Made by a program: the position numbers and the translations under genes
Source: Dehalococcoidia bacterium
GTDB lineage: Bacteria > Chloroflexota > Dehalococcoidia > UBA2979
DNA length: 64,000 bases
Direction: 5' to 3'
NCBI GenBank assembly: GCA_029246995.1
Contig: JAQWMB010000012.1
Span: 1 to 64,000 of the forward strand
Shown here: piece by piece, positions 26,523-39,584 of the stretch
Position numbering within the stretch: position 1 is the first letter of the stretch
Layout of the letters: the number at the start of each line of letters is the position of its first letter
Notes under the pieces: generated by a model
Databases searched by the model: none
Told to the model about the DNA's origin: nothing
What the model saw: only the letters and a program-made list of their open reading frames with translations

Positions 26523-27872
26523 ATGTTAGAAATTGAAAAAAGATTTATAGACTTACATCCAAAATCAAAATCACTATTTGATATAGGGCAAACTTTATTT
26601 CCATCTGGAGTGACTCATGATATTCGTGCATTACAACCTTTTCCGATCTATGTTGATAGAGCTGATAAAGGAAAAAAATGGGATGTTGATGGTAATGAGT
26701 TGATTGATTATATTGGTGGCCATGGTTCACTATTACTAGGACACAATCGGCAAGAAATTACTCAAGCTGTTCAAGATGCATTAAATTTTGGTACGCATTT
26801 TGGTTCATCGCATAATCATGAATTAGATTGGGCACAATCTGTAATAGATATGGTTCCATGTGCAGAGAATGTAAGATTTACTAGCTCTGGTACAGAAGCA
26901 ACTATGATGGCATTACGTTTAGCCAGAGCATTTACTGATCGTGACGTTATTATCAAATTAGAAGATCATTTTCATGGTTGGCATGATATTGTAGTTGGTA
27001 AAAATTATAGTGATAGTATTCATGCACCTGGTGTGCCTATTGATTTTTATAAATCATTATCTATTTTACAGCCGAACGATATTGATTCTTTAGTAAATAG
27101 ATTAAAGCATAAGGATGTCGCTGCTGTGATTTTAGAACCAACTGGTTCACATTGGGGTGCACATCCTTTAGATATTGAATATCTCAAAAAAGTAGATGAA
27201 GTGTCGAAAGCAACTGGTACCTTATTCATTATGGATGAAGTCATTACTGGCTTTAGAATGAGTCCAGGTGGTGCGCAAGAACTTTATGATTTAAAACCAG
27301 ATCTTTCAACCCACGCAAAAATTTTAGCTGGCGGATTACCTGGTGGATGTGTGGCTGGTCGCAAAGATATCCTAGATAGAATTGAATTTCGTGATGATCA
27401 AGATTGGAATGTAGGAGAAAAAATTGCTCACCAAGGAACTTATAATGCAAATCCAATTTCTGCAACTGCAGGGAAAGTTGCATTAGAACTTATTAAGGAT
27501 GGAGAAGAAATTCGAAAAGCAGACGAACTATCTGTATATTTAATTCGTTCCTTAAATGAAATGTTTAATAAGCATAGTATCAATGGTCGTGCTTGGACTG
27601 TATCTTCAATGTGGCACCTAAATCTTGGTTATAAAAATCTAAAGCAATTGAGCAATATTGAGGAGACTGATTGGATATATGATGAGTTGCCCAATGGTGT
27701 TAGAGATGACTTAGTGCTTCCATTGAAATGGTCATTATTAAATCATGGCGTTGATTTATTTGGCACTGGTGGCGTTATGTCATCAGCTCATACAATTGAA
27801 GACATTAATTTAACCATTAAAGCATTTGAAGTCGCAATGGAGGAAATAAAATCAGCAGGCTTAGAAATCTAA
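26523..27872 (+). CDS. Class III aminotransferase, glutamate-1-semialdehyde aminomutase-like
   Basis: FPSGVTHDIRAL, RFTSSGTEATMMALRLARAFT, DEVITGFRMSPGGAQ, AKILAGGLPGG. Confidence 0.88.
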   Translation: MLEIEKRFIDLHPKSKSLFDIGQTLFPSGVTHDIRALQPFPIYVDRADKGKKWDVDGNELIDYIGGHGSLLLGHNRQEITQAVQDALNFGTHFGSSHNHELDWAQSVIDMVPCAENVRFTSSGTEATMMALRLARAFTDRDVIIKLEDHFHGWHDIVVGKNYSDSIHAPGVPIDFYKSLSILQPNDIDSLVNRLKHKDVAAVILEPTGSHWGAHPLDIEYLKKVDEVSKATGTLFIMDEVITGFRMSPGGAQELYDLKPDLSTHAKILAGGLPGGCVAGRKDILDRIEFRDDQDWNVGEKIAHQGTYNANPISATAGKVALELIKDGEEIRKADELSVYLIRSLNEMFNKHSINGRAWTVSSMWHLNLGYKNLKQLSNIEETDWIYDELPNGVRDDLVLPLKWSLLNHGVDLFGTGGVMSSAHTIEDINLTIKAFEVAMEEIKSAGLEI

Positions 27873-29047
27873 TTTTGCTTTATGTTGCCATCGTTAATAT
27901 TAAATTGAATAGATCGGTCAATTAATTTTTTTGGTACATTGGATAAATCTGGTGAAGTGAGAAATACTTGCTCAACATTTGCCGCATGTTCAACAATGTA
28001 GTTTCTATGCTCTTCATCAAATTCTGAGAGTATGTCATCAAGTAGTAAGATTGGTTGGTCATTAGTAACTTGGTTTGATAAATGTGCTTCAGCTAAACGC
28101 ATGCATATAGTAATTAATTTCTGTTGGCCTCTTGAGCCATATGCATTTGCAGCAAGTTCGCTTAGGTCAATATTGATATCATCTCTATGAGGTCCAAAAA
28201 CTGTACTGGATTGTCTTAGATCTACTGGCCGATTTTTTTGCAATATATCAATAAAATAATCTTTGTCAATTTGAATCATTTTAGTTGTATCGAATGTTTG
28301 AGGCAGCGCAGGCCTGTAGCTTATTTTAAGATCTTTATTTTTATTATCTAATATTTCATAATGAAATTTTGCTCGAGCAGATAATTGATTGATATTTTCA
28401 CTTCTTAGATTAATAATTTCAGATGCAGCAATGGCTAACTCGCTGTCCCAATAATCTAATTCATCGTATCTTTTTTTTATATGTTTAATTTGCTTTAGTA
28501 AGCTATTTCTTTGTCTGATTATCCTATTATATTTTTGTAAATTCTTTAAATATTTTTTACTATATTGTGAAATTAGAATATCCAAATATTTTCTTCTTTC
28601 AGCAGGAGTTCCTAAGATAATTTGCATATCATTGGGTGATGCATAAATGGCTCTTAAAGTGCCAATTATTTCAGATGCTTTTTTTGTGATACCATTAAGC
28701 CTAAAGTTTTTTGTTATCTTTCCTGAAGGTTCATTGTCATTTGCAATTGTCTCTTTAATAGGTTTGCTGAACATCATATCAATTTCATGTATTTCATCTA
28801 AGGTATTAATATGAGCGGATATTTTTCCAATTGGCAAGGCGCTTTCTTGCATTATTTTCCATGAGATAAAATTTTTATCATTGCGATTTTGAATAGACTT
28901 CGTAGTTGCTAAATAATGCATTGATTCTAAAAGATTAGTTTTGCCGCTTGCATTATTACCTGTTATAAGATGTATACCATTTGTAAGATTCAATTCAATG
29001 TCTTCAAAAGTACGAATTTTTTTAAGTTGTATTTTTTTAATATGCAT
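27869..29047 (-). CDS. recF: DNA replication and repair protein RecF
   Basis: LITGNNASGKTNLLESMHYLATTKS, FGPHRDDINI, SRGQQKLITICMRLAEA, PILLLDDILSEFDEEHR. Confidence 0.93.
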   Translation of the reverse strand: MHIKKIQLKKIRTFEDIELNLTNGIHLITGNNASGKTNLLESMHYLATTKSIQNRNDKNFISWKIMQESALPIGKISAHINTLDEIHEIDMMFSKPIKETIANDNEPSGKITKNFRLNGITKKASEIIGTLRAIYASPNDMQIILGTPAERRKYLDILISQYSKKYLKNLQKYNRIIRQRNSLLKQIKHIKKRYDELDYWDSELAIAASEIINLRSENINQLSARAKFHYEILDNKNKDLKISYRPALPQTFDTTKMIQIDKDYFIDILQKNRPVDLRQSSTVFGPHRDDINIDLSELAANAYGSRGQQKLITICMRLAEAHLSNQVTNDQPILLLDDILSEFDEEHRNYIVEHAANVEQVFLTSPDLSNVPKKLIDRSIQFNINDGNIKQN

Positions 29048-31732
29048 TTATAAAATTTCTATCTTGTTAGTAGTTCCTGCTTTTACTTTTATGATACTTG
29101 GTATTCGTTTTTCGAGATCCTTAACATGTGATATAATTGCAACCATTCTATCTTCTGCAACTTCTTCTAGGGCTTCAATCACAATATCTAAATTCTCTTC
29201 ATCAAGACTACCAAAACCCTCATCAATAATGAGTGATTCCATACTCATGTGTTGTTCATAATCTTGCAAATTGGATATGTATTCAGAAATACCTAAAATC
29301 ATTGCAAGGCTACAAATAAATTTTTCTCCTCCTGAAAGTGTAACAACTTTCCTCTCTTCTCCTTTGTCAGAGATCATTAATTGACCTGTTTCCCCTTGTG
29401 ACATTGATTCTATTGATGGTGAAAGTATTTGTAGTTTTGCTGAACTTAGTAATAGAATATTTTCGATCACTTGATTTAGCACGTATTCTGGAAATGCAGA
29501 TGGATTTAGAGATTCCTTAACTTCTTGAAATAACGTATAGTCTGATTCTAATTCAGCGCTTTCTTGCTTGATTTTTATAGCTGTTTCCGATGCGTCTAGT
29601 TTTGTTTCATTTTCCTTTTCGATCTCTTTGCGAGCTTCTAAAAGTTGATTAACTTCATCAATTTTGTCATTCAGTATACCTGAGGTTACAGCTGCTGGAT
29701 TTTTGATAGTTTTTAGCATTTTATCTACTTCATCATTTTTATTTGTAAAATCACTATTAATTCTATTTAAAATAATTTCTATTTTTTCTTTATCTTTTTG
29801 TATTTGTTTTTCTTCGTCACTAAATTGTTTTTTTATTGCCTTTAGTTCGCCGCTTTTACTTTGAAATGTAAGCTGGTTTTCTTTCATAGTTTTTTCTAAG
29901 TCGGTGATTTTGTTCTGAATATTTTTATAAGTTTCTTCATTTTTATCTAAGTTGTTAATGATCTCTGCAATAGTAGATTTTTTTGGTTTTATTTTTTTGA
30001 TTATCTCTTCGTATCGTCCTAATTCGATATCTTGTTTACTAATTTGCGATTGCAGATCATGATATTGATTGCTTAGTTTTATAAATTCTTGTAGTGCACT
30101 GTATCTGCTTGCTGCTTCATGAGCCATGATAGACATTTCATCTAGTTGCAAGCTCACATCTTCTTCTAATTGAACATTTAAAATGGAGATTTTGTTTGTT
30201 TCGCAGAAGTCTTTATACTGTTTCCCAATTGGAATTAATGATTCATATTGATTTTTACTTTCTTGTATTTTTTTCACTAATCCTTCGTTACTTGCTTTGT
30301 GAATATTATCTATATGTTGCTTTAATTGTTCTTCTATACTGTATAATTTTTTGTTCAGCTCTTCTAATCGTTTTTTTTGTTCTGCATAGACATCTCTAGA
30401 TATTTCTTGTTCTTTGGTATGAGCTTTTAGCGTTGTGATTTTATTTCCACAAACTGGGCATAAATCTCCAACACTGAGCTTGGCTAATATTGATGCTATT
30501 TCATTATTAACGTTAGCTTTTTCTAATTCCTTGAGTTTTGATGACAGTGTATGAATTTCTTGTTTGATGGATAGATAATTTTGTAGTTGTTCCTCAATGT
30601 AAGTGTGTGTATTGACTTGAACTGCTATATAATTCACGATTTGAGATAAAGTTACAATCTTGTTTTCAATTTCTGTGTCTGCTTGTAAGATATATTTATT
30701 TAATTCACTAATTAATTTTATTTCATTAGTTACAATAAGTTGTTTTTCAATTACTGCCTTATTTTGCTCGAGGTCGTGTTTATTTTGCCAATGGTTGAGC
30801 GCCTCTTTACTATTTGGAACATATTGTATTTTTTCTAATTCTTTTTTGTGAAGTTGGTACTTTTTTGTATCTTGCGTTTCTTTTCCAGTGAGCGTTTTAA
30901 TATCTGATTCCAAGGATCCAATATTTGTTTTTAACTGTTTGATATTTGTTTCTCGTTGCTGCTTCTGCATGAGTCCAGTATTGAGCTCTATCATCCCATT
31001 TTTTGTATCTTCTAATAATTGAATTTCTTCTTGTAGGATTTTTTTATCTTTTTCGTTTTGTTTTTTTATTTTTTGTAATTCTTTGATAGGTATATCTATT
31101 TGGGATGTTATTTCTAAATTTTCACCTTTTAATATTTGAGCGATGTATACGTTAAGCGCACCTTGCATTGTATTTAATTGATCTTCTAATTCTTTTTCTT
31201 TGCTATATGCTATATCTCGCATTTTTTCAAAAATATTTCCGCTAATCAGCCCTGAGAAAGTTGCACGTCTACTTTTTGCATCTTGAGCAATTAAACCATC
31301 AAATTTATTTTGTGGAATTAATATCGTTTTATTGAAAAGGTTGAGATTTAATCCAATAGTTGATTCAACTGCTTTAGTTACCTCATCTTCTAATCTTTCA
31401 GCCAAGATCTCCCATTCGTTATCAACATTGAGTTTTCTGAAATAGCTTTGATTAGGTTTTGCTGATCTAAAAATTTCGTAACTGTTTCCTCGATGTTCAA
31501 ATTTTAATCGTATTGATGCATCTGGTAATGATTTTAAATCGTTTAATCCAGTATCTTTTCCTGATTTAGCTCGGCCGCCAAATAATGCATGCGTCATTGC
31601 ATCAAAGATTGATGATTTACCACTACCATTTGTGCCAACAACTGCAAATAAGTTACCAAGTTGTGCAAAGTCAATGACCTCTTTTTCTTGAAAACTTGTA
31701 ATGCCTTTAATTTCTATGCTAGTTGGTTTCAT
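29048..31732 (-). CDS. sbcC: SbcC/Rad50-type SMC nuclease subunit
   Basis: VVGTNGSGKSSIFDAM, zinc hook LCPVCGNK, LSGGEKFICSLAM, LIIDEGFGSLDEENL. Confidence 0.93.
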   Translation of the reverse strand: MKPTSIEIKGITSFQEKEVIDFAQLGNLFAVVGTNGSGKSSIFDAMTHALFGGRAKSGKDTGLNDLKSLPDASIRLKFEHRGNSYEIFRSAKPNQSYFRKLNVDNEWEILAERLEDEVTKAVESTIGLNLNLFNKTILIPQNKFDGLIAQDAKSRRATFSGLISGNIFEKMRDIAYSKEKELEDQLNTMQGALNVYIAQILKGENLEITSQIDIPIKELQKIKKQNEKDKKILQEEIQLLEDTKNGMIELNTGLMQKQQRETNIKQLKTNIGSLESDIKTLTGKETQDTKKYQLHKKELEKIQYVPNSKEALNHWQNKHDLEQNKAVIEKQLIVTNEIKLISELNKYILQADTEIENKIVTLSQIVNYIAVQVNTHTYIEEQLQNYLSIKQEIHTLSSKLKELEKANVNNEIASILAKLSVGDLCPVCGNKITTLKAHTKEQEISRDVYAEQKKRLEELNKKLYSIEEQLKQHIDNIHKASNEGLVKKIQESKNQYESLIPIGKQYKDFCETNKISILNVQLEEDVSLQLDEMSIMAHEAASRYSALQEFIKLSNQYHDLQSQISKQDIELGRYEEIIKKIKPKKSTIAEIINNLDKNEETYKNIQNKITDLEKTMKENQLTFQSKSGELKAIKKQFSDEEKQIQKDKEKIEIILNRINSDFTNKNDEVDKMLKTIKNPAAVTSGILNDKIDEVNQLLEARKEIEKENETKLDASETAIKIKQESAELESDYTLFQEVKESLNPSAFPEYVLNQVIENILLLSSAKLQILSPSIESMSQGETGQLMISDKGEERKVVTLSGGEKFICSLAMILGISEYISNLQDYEQHMSMESLIIDEGFGSLDEENLDIVIEALEEVAEDRMVAIISHVKDLEKRIPSIIKVKAGTTNKIEIL

Positions 31733-32915
31733 TAGACTTCACTTCTTCAAATAATTGCTTGAATATTGCTAATTTTTTCTTTTCTAATTTTGTATCTGAT
31801 CTTGTATCATGCAACCAGTTTTTATACAGTTCTAATTCTGAAAGTTGTTTACGCACATCTTGTTCAATAACACGTTGTATGTTTTGATTACGAATTCTGA
31901 TGTCAATGACGTTAGGAATTTGAGCTTCAAGCATAGTTCGGTAATTTTTTGGAGGCATTTCATCCGTAAGTGTAATTTTTAAATATTCAGATTTGTAATT
32001 GGATGCTTGTTCAAGGACATCATCATAAGTTCCAATGAGTTCTTTTAACATTTTGCCTTTGGTTAAGTTAACTGTTTTGACAGTGGTTTTTTCTCCTGCA
32101 TGACAATCTGCAATATAAACAACTTTTTGTTGCTCAGCTTCTGCAAAGCTAAATTGTAAAATTGAACCAGCATAATGGACTGGTGTATCATGCATGATTT
32201 CTTGTGGTTTATGGATGTGTCCTAGCGCAGTGTAATTAATTTGTTTTGGTAGTTGTGAACTTTTTACTCCATATGTCACCTTATCAAGGCTTAATCTTCG
32301 CTCAGATATATCATTTTCTTGGTCGGCATCTCGAACTATTGCTTCGTTAATTAAAACATGGCTGGTAAGAATTCGAATTGCATTAGAGTCGAGTTTGTTG
32401 ACTAGTTCAGTGAATAATTCTTCTAATAATGCACCATACATTTGTCCTGTTTCTTGGCGAGATTGTTCTATAGCCTTGCTCGGATTTATTTTTGCAAGTG
32501 TGTTTTCGTTTAACCACGGCACTACTGCTATTTGTAGTGTTTCATTATTCTTTTCAATTGTTATGATGTTGTTTTCTAACTCATCAAAATTTGTTTCATG
32601 TACAACATGTATGCCAAACTCATTTAATGGGATTGACATTGCTTCAATTTTTTTTGGAGAGTCGTGATTGCCTGGGAAAAGAACAATGTCAATATTGTGA
32701 CGATTGATTTCTGTCATAGTTTTATAAAATAATTTTTCTGCTTCAGTGCTCGGTGAGTAACTATCAAAAATATCACCTGCGATAATTATGCAGTCTACCT
32801 TTTCGTTAATTGCAATTTCGGTAATTTCATTAAGAACTTCCTGAAACTCTGATATACGATCGATGCCCTTTAATTTTTTGCCGATATGCCAGTCACTAGT
32901 ATGCAATATCTTCAT
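31719..32915 (-). CDS. sbcD: SbcD/Mre11-type exonuclease subunit
   Basis: ILHTSDWHIGKKL, IIAGDIFDSYSPS, LFPGNHDSPKK, ALGHIHKPQ. Confidence 0.95.
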   Translation of the reverse strand: MKILHTSDWHIGKKLKGIDRISEFQEVLNEITEIAINEKVDCIIIAGDIFDSYSPSTEAEKLFYKTMTEINRHNIDIVLFPGNHDSPKKIEAMSIPLNEFGIHVVHETNFDELENNIITIEKNNETLQIAVVPWLNENTLAKINPSKAIEQSRQETGQMYGALLEELFTELVNKLDSNAIRILTSHVLINEAIVRDADQENDISERRLSLDKVTYGVKSSQLPKQINYTALGHIHKPQEIMHDTPVHYAGSILQFSFAEAEQQKVVYIADCHAGEKTTVKTVNLTKGKMLKELIGTYDDVLEQASNYKSEYLKITLTDEMPPKNYRTMLEAQIPNVIDIRIRNQNIQRVIEQDVRKQLSELELYKNWLHDTRSDTKLEKKKLAIFKQLFEEVKSNETN

Positions 32916-32926
32916 TGATCATTTCC

Positions 32927-34654
32927 TTAATCATCTGATGCATATTCATCTAGCATTTTTTTCGTCCCTTTATTTTTAATGTCACTTTTTTTTGTCGCCC
33001 ATGCCGGGAAAGGAAATTGTAAAAGAATAGGAATCGGAACCTGTGGCTGTGTAACAACCATCGTGCCAGGTTGCAATAATTTTGTTCTTGTTTTAGCTGC
33101 TTGCGTGAGATAGCTATATTCGCTTTTTTCGGATTCCGCTGCATCTAAACGACCAGTGACTCGAAATGCACTATTGGATACAATACGTGGTTCAATTTCA
33201 GATGCAGTTTGTTGTGCACCGATGAGAATGATATTCATTGAACGCCCTCGTTCTGCTATGTCAACAAGATATTCTTTAATTGAACTTGAGTTATCTTTAG
33301 GTGCATATTTATTTAATTCATCAAGAACAATAAAGACAGGACTATTTTCACCTCCAGCATCTGTTTTTTCTCTGTCGGCAATCAGTTCCTTTAAAATGAC
33401 TCCAACAACAAATTTCTGTGCTCTCCCATGTAATTGATGGATATCTACAACAGTAATATTGGTTTGTTTATAATGAACGCCTGAACCTATTTCACTATCG
33501 TCACTAATCAGGTCATTAATGTATCTTGCAGAATTTCGTAATCGTCGCATAAATGCAGACCATGTTGCCTCATTCATATTTGTCCCTTTGGACCATGGAC
33601 CAGTTTTAACACCTTCTTCATTGTTTTTGAAATCTGAATCTATCGCTGGTTGCGTTAACTTTTCAATTTCATCTATTAATTCATAAATTGTTGAGCAAGT
33701 ATCAATGCTGTTACCAACTTCTAAAAAATCATTATCTAGTTTATAAGCGACTAAGTTGACTAAGGATTCTATTTGCGTTGTGCGAAAATCATCTTCAGTG
33801 AATAGTAATCGAATGTATTGTTTTTTACAAAAATCTTCAATTGTCCAATGTAATAATTTTACTTCTTCTCCATCTCGACTTGCTGGTAATTTTGAGTTTT
33901 GTCCATTTGGCTTACTATAGAATTGAATATTAGAAAATGGCTCTGGCTCAATGCCCATTTTTTTATACATCTTTTGTGAAGTTTCATCCTCATTCATTTT
34001 TGAATTTGCTTTGTCTAACCACATCAAATCTTCGCCTTTAACATTAAAAATAATTGCGTGCGTATTTGCTCGCTTGTTCTTTTCATGCTGTTTCAAAGAA
34101 GAAAATATGCTATGCAATAAAAAAGTTGCGTAACTTGTTTTTGTTGCTACGCCTGAAATTCCTGAGATATTAACATGTGCTCCACTTTCACCATCTAAGA
34201 AATCTAAATTGCCATGTATCACTTCTTCTTGCGCTAAACCAGTTCGTGTGTGCCCTAGCACAAAAGTGCGATCCATTACGTCTTCATACAATGCTTTTTT
34301 GAATTCATTATTTGTAGCTTTATATATAGCATGTCCAGGTGTTGGTGGATTGAAGATTTGGGGTTCTACTCTTAAGACAGAAACGTGTGCAATTTCTGCA
34401 AGCCTTGAAGGTAATTTATTGGGATATAGCTCTGCATCTGATGCAAAATCTGTTCCTTCCAAACTTTTTTTCATTTCATCAACAATTCCATAAATAAATC
34501 TTGGTTCATCTTGGTTTTCTTCAGTAATTTCTAAATAAACTATGTCATCTAGTTGAACATTGTTGTTATCTTGCACATACAGCCAAAAATCAAGCGGATT
34601 TGAAGCAAGTCGCTCAACTCCAATCACAATGCCAATTTCATTTGATTCACTCAT
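32927..34654 (-). CDS. HerA-like DNA-translocase ATPase
   Basis: VNISGISGVATKTSYATFLLHSIF; FIVLDELNKYAP Walker B; LIGAQQTASEIEPRIVSNSAFRVTGRLD. Confidence 0.85.
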   Translation of the reverse strand: MSESNEIGIVIGVERLASNPLDFWLYVQDNNNVQLDDIVYLEITEENQDEPRFIYGIVDEMKKSLEGTDFASDAELYPNKLPSRLAEIAHVSVLRVEPQIFNPPTPGHAIYKATNNEFKKALYEDVMDRTFVLGHTRTGLAQEEVIHGNLDFLDGESGAHVNISGISGVATKTSYATFLLHSIFSSLKQHEKNKRANTHAIIFNVKGEDLMWLDKANSKMNEDETSQKMYKKMGIEPEPFSNIQFYSKPNGQNSKLPASRDGEEVKLLHWTIEDFCKKQYIRLLFTEDDFRTTQIESLVNLVAYKLDNDFLEVGNSIDTCSTIYELIDEIEKLTQPAIDSDFKNNEEGVKTGPWSKGTNMNEATWSAFMRRLRNSARYINDLISDDSEIGSGVHYKQTNITVVDIHQLHGRAQKFVVGVILKELIADREKTDAGGENSPVFIVLDELNKYAPKDNSSSIKEYLVDIAERGRSMNIILIGAQQTASEIEPRIVSNSAFRVTGRLDAAESEKSEYSYLTQAAKTRTKLLQPGTMVVTQPQVPIPILLQFPFPAWATKKSDIKNKGTKKMLDEYASDD

Positions 34655-34656
34655 TA

Positions 34657-35673
34657 TTAGTTATCCTTATTTTCATAAATATACTTTTGAATCCCTCGTT
34701 GAATGATATGCTTGTCACCTATTAAATGTTTCATCCTCTTCTCTAGTTCACCAACAGGGATCGGATTTTGTGGAGCGCGAGAATCTTTAAAAGACTCTGG
34801 TGCAATACTTGGAAAAATTGCACATGTTGCATCAGCAAAATTGCTTGCTTGCTTAATGGATGCTTGTGCTTCACTCATTTCAAATCTCATTAATCCTGCC
34901 ATATAATCGTATACATCATTATCAAATTGCTTAATGCATGTAAACCATGACAATTTATTGCCATATGTTTCATTGGGTATGCGGAAGATTGGTGTACGTT
35001 GTCCTTCATTAAGTTCTTCTAAAATGATTAATTTATTAGAGGGTAAATATAACTGTCGCATTCCTTTAATATAGCCAATGATATTACTTTCTGTATTTCT
35101 TGGTTGTGAAATAGGTCCGTCTAAAAAAATCATTTTATTAGAATTAGCTAATGAATTAGCCAGTTTCAACTCCTCTTTGCTCATTAGACTTGTTAGATTA
35201 TCCATGAGATTTCTTACGCTATTGAGATTGCCTGATTTTTTTGATTGACTCTGTTTAATTCCTTGAAATATTAACATACTATTACCAATATCCATATGGA
35301 GATCTTCTACTGGATCTTTTGCATTCTCTGGCGTGAATTGTATTTTATATCTACGAACAATTGGCATAGTATCATTTTCAAGAATACTTGCTTGTTGTGG
35401 GGTTACTTCTACTGCACCTACAACAATAGAGCCAAGAATAACTTGACATTTCACATTTTGAATATAAGTGGATAAATTTATGTGTGTTTTTTCAGTACCA
35501 TCTACAATAGTATAAGAAAATTCTGTATCTGTGTACGGACTTATTGGCTTCCACGATCCTGTTTCTATTTCACAATCTCCGTCGGCAATAGTGTGGATCT
35601 CAAAATTTTCATCATCGATTGATTGCGTATGATTTATATCCCAGGTACCAGACAATTTGTATTTTTGTTGCAT
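34657..35673 (-). CDS. NurA-domain nuclease candidate
   Basis: IFLDGPISQPRN, LMRFEMS, C-terminal PIPVGELEKRMKHLIGD; directly upstream of HerA-like gene. Confidence 0.65.
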   Translation of the reverse strand: MQQKYKLSGTWDINHTQSIDDENFEIHTIADGDCEIETGSWKPISPYTDTEFSYTIVDGTEKTHINLSTYIQNVKCQVILGSIVVGAVEVTPQQASILENDTMPIVRRYKIQFTPENAKDPVEDLHMDIGNSMLIFQGIKQSQSKKSGNLNSVRNLMDNLTSLMSKEELKLANSLANSNKMIFLDGPISQPRNTESNIIGYIKGMRQLYLPSNKLIILEELNEGQRTPIFRIPNETYGNKLSWFTCIKQFDNDVYDYMAGLMRFEMSEAQASIKQASNFADATCAIFPSIAPESFKDSRAPQNPIPVGELEKRMKHLIGDKHIIQRGIQKYIYENKDN

Positions 35674-35725
35674 TTTTTTTATTTGTTTAACGTAGGCGTA
35701 TTATACACTATTGCAATAGAAGAAT

Positions 35726-37841: not shown

Positions 37842-39584
37842 TTAGATTTTAATTTTTCTAGTAATTCCTAAAAATAATCTTTGAATTTTTCCTGAAAACC
37901 TATTATTTTTACCAAGATTTTCCCATTTATTATCTCGTGCGCGTATTCTTTTTTCCATATTTATTTTTTGTAAATTAATCAATGAATTTGTTAAAGCATT
38001 AAAGAGCAATCTGGCAGCTTCTTTATGATTATTACTTGCTTCATTCTTTGGTTCTGCAATAATCTCATCTACAAAACCAAGATTTTTATGATCAGTAGCT
38101 GTAATGCCTAATGCATCTGCAATATCTTCTGTATATTTTTTATCTCTATACAATATTGATGCTGCGCCTTCTGGAGAAGTGATAGCTAAGAATGCATTTT
38201 CTTGCATCAGTACTTTGTCAGTACAACATAATGCAATTGCACCGCCAGAACCACCTTCACCAATGATGACTGATACTGTTTCAACAGTTACTTGAGATAA
38301 ACTAGCTATTGTGTCTGAAATAGATTTTGCAAGACCAATTTTTTCGTTTTCGATACTATCATTTGCTCCTGGTGTATCAACAAAACAAATGATCGGTAGC
38401 CTCAATCTATTTGCAAGATTAATTAGTCTTGTTGCTTTACGATAGCCAGTAGCGCTTACGCGACCTCTGGTTATTTCTGATAATCCAGCATTTCTGTCTT
38501 GTGCTATAACCATTACATTTTTTAATGCTAATTTTGCAAATCCACCAATTAGAACGGTATCTTCTGCACCACTTCGATCGCCTTTTAATTCTATAAAATC
38601 TGAAAAGATATTATCTATATATTCTCTGGAACTTGGCCTATTAAGATCTCTACTTTTTTGAACAGAGTCCCATCCCGTTTGTTTTTTTTCAAATTCAGCT
38701 GCTTGAGGAATCAATTGAGCTGCAGATATTTCAATTTGATTTGGAGAAATTAAGTTTAAAACTCTTTCTAAATAATCTTTCATATCTTGTCTGGGGAGTA
38801 TTTTATCTACCAGACCATTTTCATAGATTTCTTCTGCAAGCAGTCTATCTTTTTCATCTGTGTTGACAGCACGAACTCGAGGGCCTGCAAAGCCTATTAA
38901 GGCTTCTTTTTCAGCTATTAATATGTCAGCTTGATTTGCAAAAGAAGCATAGACCCCTCCAGTTGTAGGGTTAGCTAAAATACATATCATGGGAAGATTT
39001 ACAGCATGTAATTTATTAATGGCATTAGTAGTTTTAATCATTTGTGCTAATGCAAGTGTTCCTTCTTGCATTCTGGCTCCACCTGAGCAAGTGACTACAA
39101 CGAAAGGTAGTTTAGAGTTAATCGCTTTATCAATTGCAGAAGTAATTTTTTCTCCTACAGCATAACCCATGGATCCACCCATAAATTTAAAATCAAAAAT
39201 CGCTGCAATAACTTTTATCCCTTTAATTTCTGTAAGGCCAGTCGATACAGCTGCTTGCTCGCCTGTAGATTCTTTTGCTATCTTGATTCTATCTTTGTAA
39301 GGTTTTTGGTCATTAAAATGCAGTGGATCTGGTGATTCGATATTTAAAAATTTCTCATCAAAGCTTTCTTGATCAAAAAGAATATTTACCCATTGTTTTG
39401 CAGATAAAGCATCTTTATGTCCACATGCGCTACAAATACCAAATGCAAGATATCCGCTATCATCTATTAAATCTATTTTACAGTCTTTGCAGTTTAGACT
39501 TATCTTTTTTTTGGTTGAAGATTGCAAAGATATAAAGAAATTTTTTGATCGTATAGCTGTAATGAGCTTTTTAATTTTATCCAT
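37842..39584 (-). CDS. Fused acetyl-CoA carboxylase carboxyltransferase beta-alpha (AccDA)
   Basis: CxxC..CxxC zinc finger; VVVTCSGGARMQEGTLALAQM (AccD); IICFVDTPGANDSIENEKIGLAKSI and VIIGEGGSGGAIAL (AccA). Confidence 0.92.
   Translation of the reverse strand: MDKIKKLITAIRSKNFFISLQSSTKKKISLNCKDCKIDLIDDSGYLAFGICSACGHKDALSAKQWVNILFDQESFDEKFLNIESPDPLHFNDQKPYKDRIKIAKESTGEQAAVSTGLTEIKGIKVIAAIFDFKFMGGSMGYAVGEKITSAIDKAINSKLPFVVVTCSGGARMQEGTLALAQMIKTTNAINKLHAVNLPMICILANPTTGGVYASFANQADILIAEKEALIGFAGPRVRAVNTDEKDRLLAEEIYENGLVDKILPRQDMKDYLERVLNLISPNQIEISAAQLIPQAAEFEKKQTGWDSVQKSRDLNRPSSREYIDNIFSDFIELKGDRSGAEDTVLIGGFAKLALKNVMVIAQDRNAGLSEITRGRVSATGYRKATRLINLANRLRLPIICFVDTPGANDSIENEKIGLAKSISDTIASLSQVTVETVSVIIGEGGSGGAIALCCTDKVLMQENAFLAITSPEGAASILYRDKKYTEDIADALGITATDHKNLGFVDEIIAEPKNEASNNHKEAARLLFNALTNSLINLQKINMEKRIRARDNKWENLGKNNRFSGKIQRLFLGITRKIKI

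Follow-up and report, generated by a model that had tools for sequence, protein, structure and literature searches.

A conserved nurA-herA-sbcD-sbcC gene core extended by recF, a candidate operon for DNA end resection in a Dehalococcoidia genus that has lost recJ

The 64,000-nucleotide stretch of DNA analysed here (hereafter the window), from the genome of a Dehalococcoidia bacterium, carries five complete open reading frames (ORFs), each running from ATG to stop, that are arranged head to tail on the minus strand from 35673 to 27869. They encode NurA, an RNase H-fold nuclease (34657..35673, 338 aa), HerA, a hexameric ATPase/translocase (32927..34654, 575 aa), SbcD (Mre11; 31719..32915, 398 aa), SbcC (Rad50; 29048..31732, 894 aa) and RecF (27869..29047, 392 aa), the start codon of recF lying immediately 3' of the sbcC stop. 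The genes are spaced by 2 bp (nurA/herA), 11 bp (herA/sbcD) and 0 bp (sbcC/recF), and sbcD and sbcC overlap by 14 bp; the tight five-gene minus-strand operon of the initial annotation was thus recovered, with junctions of -14 to +11 bp. The GC contents of the five genes (0.30-0.35) match that of the window (0.33), so that their composition gives no sign of recent import.

The intergenic gap between nurA and a divergent ubiE/menG gene contains a -10-like box, TATAAT, on the minus strand ahead of nurA (35700..35705; TAGTGTATAATAC). The box and its flank (TAGTGTATAATACCCCTAC) are also present in the second genome of the genus (G001) at a similar distance from nurA; a consensus promoter scan did not list the TATAAT box 5' of nurA, because it lacks a -35 match. 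A perfect 12-bp palindrome in the same upstream region (CTATTGCAATAG) was discarded as a candidate operator, because it is absent from G001. Elsewhere in the window, a single 580-aa ORF (37842-39584) matches Carboxyl_trans over residues 95-524 and ACCA over residues 290-558, and looks like an acetyl-CoA carboxylase protein in which AccD and AccA are fused.

The product of 34657-35673 had been annotated as a NurA-like nuclease. The window protein alone gave no Pfam match, and PF09376 found nothing in the window's own genome; 22 of 29 homologs matched PF09376, the best at 8.1e-9. A profile built from the family matched Deinococcus radiodurans NurA (PDB 7f6d) at 4.2e-61 and Thermotoga TM1739 (1zup) at 3.6e-19, and the single window sequence matched 7f6d at 3.7e-16. 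Further Foldseek analysis of an AlphaFold (AF2) model of the protein (pLDDT 84.1, pTM 0.84) returned 7f6d (1.6e-20), 1zup (4.3e-15) and Sulfolobus solfataricus NurA (2ygk, 2.9e-8) as its top three entries, all of which are NurA or NurA-like. Residues D58 (in IVDGT), E168 and D185 (in LDGP) are invariant across the 29 aligned sequences, as are K203, R226 and E265, and the three acidic residues are the predicted conserved active-site residues of NurA. Family profile, homologs and fold therefore agree, neither profiles nor structure having failed, and these data confirm that the protein is NurA by family, sequence and fold, with D. radiodurans NurA as its best match.

The initial assignments of the other four proteins were borne out as well. 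HerA scores below the curated cut-off of Pfam DUF87 but matches the solved D. radiodurans HerA (7f6d/7wrw/7wrx) over its full length, at 2.2e-109 with the single sequence and 6.7e-192 with a profile. Its Walker A motif (GISGVATKTS, with K172 and T173) and Walker B residues D445/E446 are conserved, and the alignment with the D. radiodurans protein takes in the K/T and D/E positions given for its Walker motifs (PMC9960219). SbcD matches TIGR00619 at 5.2e-55 (187 bits against a cut-off of 77.65), PF00149 at 2.5e-14 and PF12320 at 4.3e-6, with the phosphoesterase motifs DWHIGK, GDIFDS, GNHDS and GHIHKP intact. SbcC matches TIGR00618 at 1.8e-51, which is under the full-length cut-off, together with PF13476 and PF13558; its Walker A (GTNGSGKSS), signature (LSGGEK) and Walker B (SLIIDEGFGSLD) motifs and a CPVC zinc hook at residues 425-428 (positions 30449-30460) predict a split ABC ATPase head and a zinc hook. 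RecF matches TIGR00611 at 1.9e-84 (283.8 bits against a cut-off of 172) and carries Walker A (GNNASGKTNLLE) and Walker B (ILLLDDILSEFD) motifs.

The order nurA-herA-sbcD-sbcC was found in nearly every genome of the window's family in which the contig permits, usually next to the divergent ubiE/menG gene, which gives the core a fixed chromosomal place across many genera, and NurA homologs occur in nearly all genomes of the family. This HerA is rare in the sampled Chloroflexota and, outside the family, patchily distributed: among 201 genomes, 20 had any match and 10 a match of at least 280 bits, the window's own genome included. All eight neighbourhoods of strong HerA matches in other Chloroflexota that were not cut by a contig end contained the quartet (own genome excluded). 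Single-sequence HerA patterns gave no matches in a scan of genome contigs, and a scan of GTDB genomes with a HerA alignment query recovered 80 named loci from several phyla, including a close locus in a SAR202 metagenome-assembled genome. In most of these loci sbcD-sbcC lies behind herA, and nurA either precedes herA, as in the loci of Chloroflexota, Acidobacteriota and Binatota, or follows sbcC, as in those of Gemmatimonadota and most Actinomycetota; the Aquificota loci have herA without sbcDC. The cultivable Actinomycetota Actinoplanes and Glycomyces carry the same quartet. A quick HerA tree, in which the window sequence sits on a long branch and is uncertainly placed, shows a single switch between nurA-first and nurA-last orders. 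Since the four-gene core recurs across the family and in other phyla, the arrangement does not reflect chance.

The initial annotation had regarded this arrangement as archaeal and odd for a bacterium, a view that did not hold, because the quartet is widespread in bacteria, its SbcD and SbcC are of bacterial type, its HerA and NurA are Deinococcus-like, and a bacterial example has been published (PMC5448004). Import of an archaeal operon was rejected on sequence grounds, the nearest relatives appearing bacterial: SbcD scored 187 bits with the bacterial model versus 80 with an archaeal one, SbcC 175 versus 97, and HerA and NurA were closest to Deinococcus. The quartet is thus a known kind of operon. 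Our literature search, whose coverage did not extend to two early comparative papers, returned no paper on its wide bacterial distribution, and we claim no priority.

Several variants were seen during the survey. Apparent NurA-HerA and SbcD-SbcC fusions in GC-rich relatives are over-long ORF starts and not real fusions. In genus g9, a 591-695 aa ORF in opposite orientation and without a Pfam match lies between herA and sbcD (L056:4968-6743; L049:5421-7508; L048:5046-6872). Genome G010 has two nurA-herA-sbcD loci, on contigs C12 (L034) and C11 (L059), each similar to one of the two subtypes in the family; contamination of the bin (3%) is a possible source of the second copy. At three other Chloroflexota loci (L231, L232 and L233, in G126, G202 and G128, respectively), a divergent HerA follows a weak NurA-like gene without sbcDC; this HerA probably belongs to a different subfamily and is possibly mobile or defence-linked.

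The attachment of recF has a far narrower distribution than the core. recF directly follows sbcC in both genomes of the window's genus and only there, with a gap of 0 bp in the window and 7 bp in G001, and recF belongs to the operon in only one of the 80 named GTDB loci, that of the congener. The synteny survey proposed with the initial annotation therefore bore out the four-gene core, and limited the recF adjacency to the genus. In genera g7, g16 and g17, sbcC and recF share contig and strand but are separated by about 6-8 kb, which hold NuoE-like, NuoF-like and formate dehydrogenase genes and two genes on the opposite strand. Because recF sits beyond this formate dehydrogenase block in the sister genera, the attachment is most likely a recent, genus-level event that came about when the genes separating recF from sbcC were deleted, and an adjacency of such origin is, when taken alone, weak evidence for functional coupling. 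RecF is mainly known as a loader at gaps, so that the junction may carry no functional meaning. The chances are about even that the junction is a chance by-product of genome streamlining, with a functional resection quartet and an uncoupled recF brought near by deletion; the arrangement in g7, g16 and g17, the restriction of the attachment to the genus and the small size of the window's genome (1.19 Mb) all speak for this explanation. Against it, the tight junction has been kept in both genomes of the genus, and the genus has also lost recJ, which would leave RecFOR dependent on another resection enzyme.

A search for PDDEXK_1 nucleases found no AddAB/RecBCD/AdnAB-type pair in the two genomes of the genus (G000, the window's genome, and G001; completeness 89% and 83%, respectively), the presence or absence of such a helicase-nuclease pair being a check that the initial annotation had named. 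G001 gave no PDDEXK_1 match at all. G000 encodes a stand-alone 406-aa PDDEXK_1 (RecB-family) nuclease on contig C18 (L103:5986-7206), without a helicase and without an NCBIfam match. An AddB-AddA pair is present in G005, which belongs to another genus of the same family. Neither genome of the genus has RecJ, whereas all but one of the 20 other sampled genomes of the family do, a distribution with which a DHH domain search of six genomes agrees. In g7 and g17, recJ is flanked by fabF on one side and by a 147-153 aa gene and tyrS on the other. In both genomes of the window's genus, fabF and tyrS meet without recJ and the 147-aa gene (G000, contig C18, 71365-73829; G001, contig C6, 15306-17758; loci L244-L249): in G000 the match to tyrS stops at 72585 and that to fabF starts at 72597, and the corresponding positions in G001 are 16526 and 16532. 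With no room left between the two genes, recJ has been lost from its ancestral locus, rather than being hidden in an assembly gap. Synteny was compared for recJ, and the nuclease searches covered PDDEXK_1, RecJ and DHH proteins. RecA, RecF, RecO and RecR were all found in G000; G001 gave no recR or recO match, which may reflect its 83% completeness. Since no AddAB-type pair was found and recJ has been lost while RecA, RecF, RecO and RecR are kept, NurA-HerA with SbcCD is the best candidate for the machine that would resect ends and feed RecFOR in this genus, as far as gene content can tell. The single route from end resection to RecA that the initial annotation had suggested is accordingly made likelier by the loss of recJ than by adjacency, which in itself counts for little.

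With a probability of roughly three in four, we consider nurA-herA-sbcD-sbcC-recF to be a single transcription unit for DNA double-strand break repair. In the proposed mechanism, the five genes would be co-transcribed and the four core proteins would cooperate physically: SbcCD (Mre11-Rad50) would recognise and open blocked or hairpin ends, the HerA hexamer would pump the duplex into the NurA dimer, and the NurA dimer would degrade the 5' strand, leaving a 3' single strand onto which RecF, along with the RecO and RecR of a separate locus, would load RecA. The biochemistry of this scheme is carried over by analogy from the proteins of D. radiodurans and their archaeal counterparts (PMC9960219, PMC4351679). 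DNA end resection has been reported for NurA-HerA of D. radiodurans (PMC9960219). Two reports count against the mechanism, as the polarity of trimming by NurA-HerA is disputed (PMC9960219) and loss of nurA/herA in D. radiodurans barely affected radioresistance (reported in PMC5448004). A more far-reaching version, which we hold only tentatively and think rather unlikely, is that in this streamlined marine genus NurA-HerA and SbcCD have fully replaced 5'-end resection by RecJ/AddAB and that the five genes act as a dedicated module leading from DNA end to RecA, in which the Mre11-Rad50/HerA-NurA machine hands single-stranded DNA directly to RecF(OR); if this is true, bacteria would have a third route of resection besides AddAB/RecBCD and RecQ-RecJ.

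Two further explanations assign the cluster to other processes, and both are very improbable. HerA-type ATPases occur in defence systems, HerA and SMC-like proteins gave weak PADLOC matches, and the distribution in Chloroflexota outside the family is patchy, all of which would fit an anti-phage defence island; this was rejected, as the match to D. radiodurans HerA far exceeds the defence-HerA scores from PADLOC and NCBIfam, the locus keeps its chromosomal position next to ubiE/menG in many of the family's genera, and its partners are the housekeeping SbcCD and RecF. A role of NurA-HerA in DNA transfer or uptake with SbcCD as a passenger, for which the NurA-family protein and HerA homologs of Thermus transjugation provide a precedent (PMC5448004, PMC5365140), has just as little chance of being right, given that linkage to sbcCD is conserved across many phyla and that the genus has lost other resection enzymes.

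Compared with characterized systems, the double-strand break repair operon proposed here is most similar in its proteins to D. radiodurans NurA-HerA (7f6d, 7wrw, 7wrx; PMC9960219), which belongs to the same families, gives the best sequence and fold matches, shares the Walker residues and is likewise encoded by two genes in an operon. In contrast, the two Deinococcales loci recovered (L165 and L183) have nurA-herA without sbcDC, to which the window operon adds sbcDC and recF. The nurA-hepA(herA)-sbcD-sbcC cluster of Oceanithermus profundus (PMC5448004) has the same four functions, with sbcD and sbcC downstream of hepA, but belongs to another phylum and has no reported recF. The Actinomycetota and Gemmatimonadota herA-sbcD-sbcC-nurA operons share the HerA subfamily and the four partners, whereas nurA comes last and recF is lacking. 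In archaea, an operon of essential genes (herA/mre11/rad50/nurA) also combines the four functions, and DNA end resection is carried out by HerA-NurA (PMC4351679, PMC2288612); the window operon differs in its bacterial-type SbcD/SbcC and Deinococcus-type HerA/NurA, with nurA first and recF after.

Mre11-Rad50 and HerA-NurA may resect DNA ends together in bacteria, as in archaea; for Deinococcus the link between SbcCD and HerA-NurA was said by the authors to remain to be uncovered (PMC4663267). With its recF extension, the genus carries a variant of its own of a widespread operon, and its loss of recJ is new information. A genus without the other resection systems searched for is a natural case for the link between SbcCD and HerA-NurA, and the quartets of many bacterial phyla, together with an AddAB-/RecJ-less lineage that kept and extended the operon, make this possibility directly testable.
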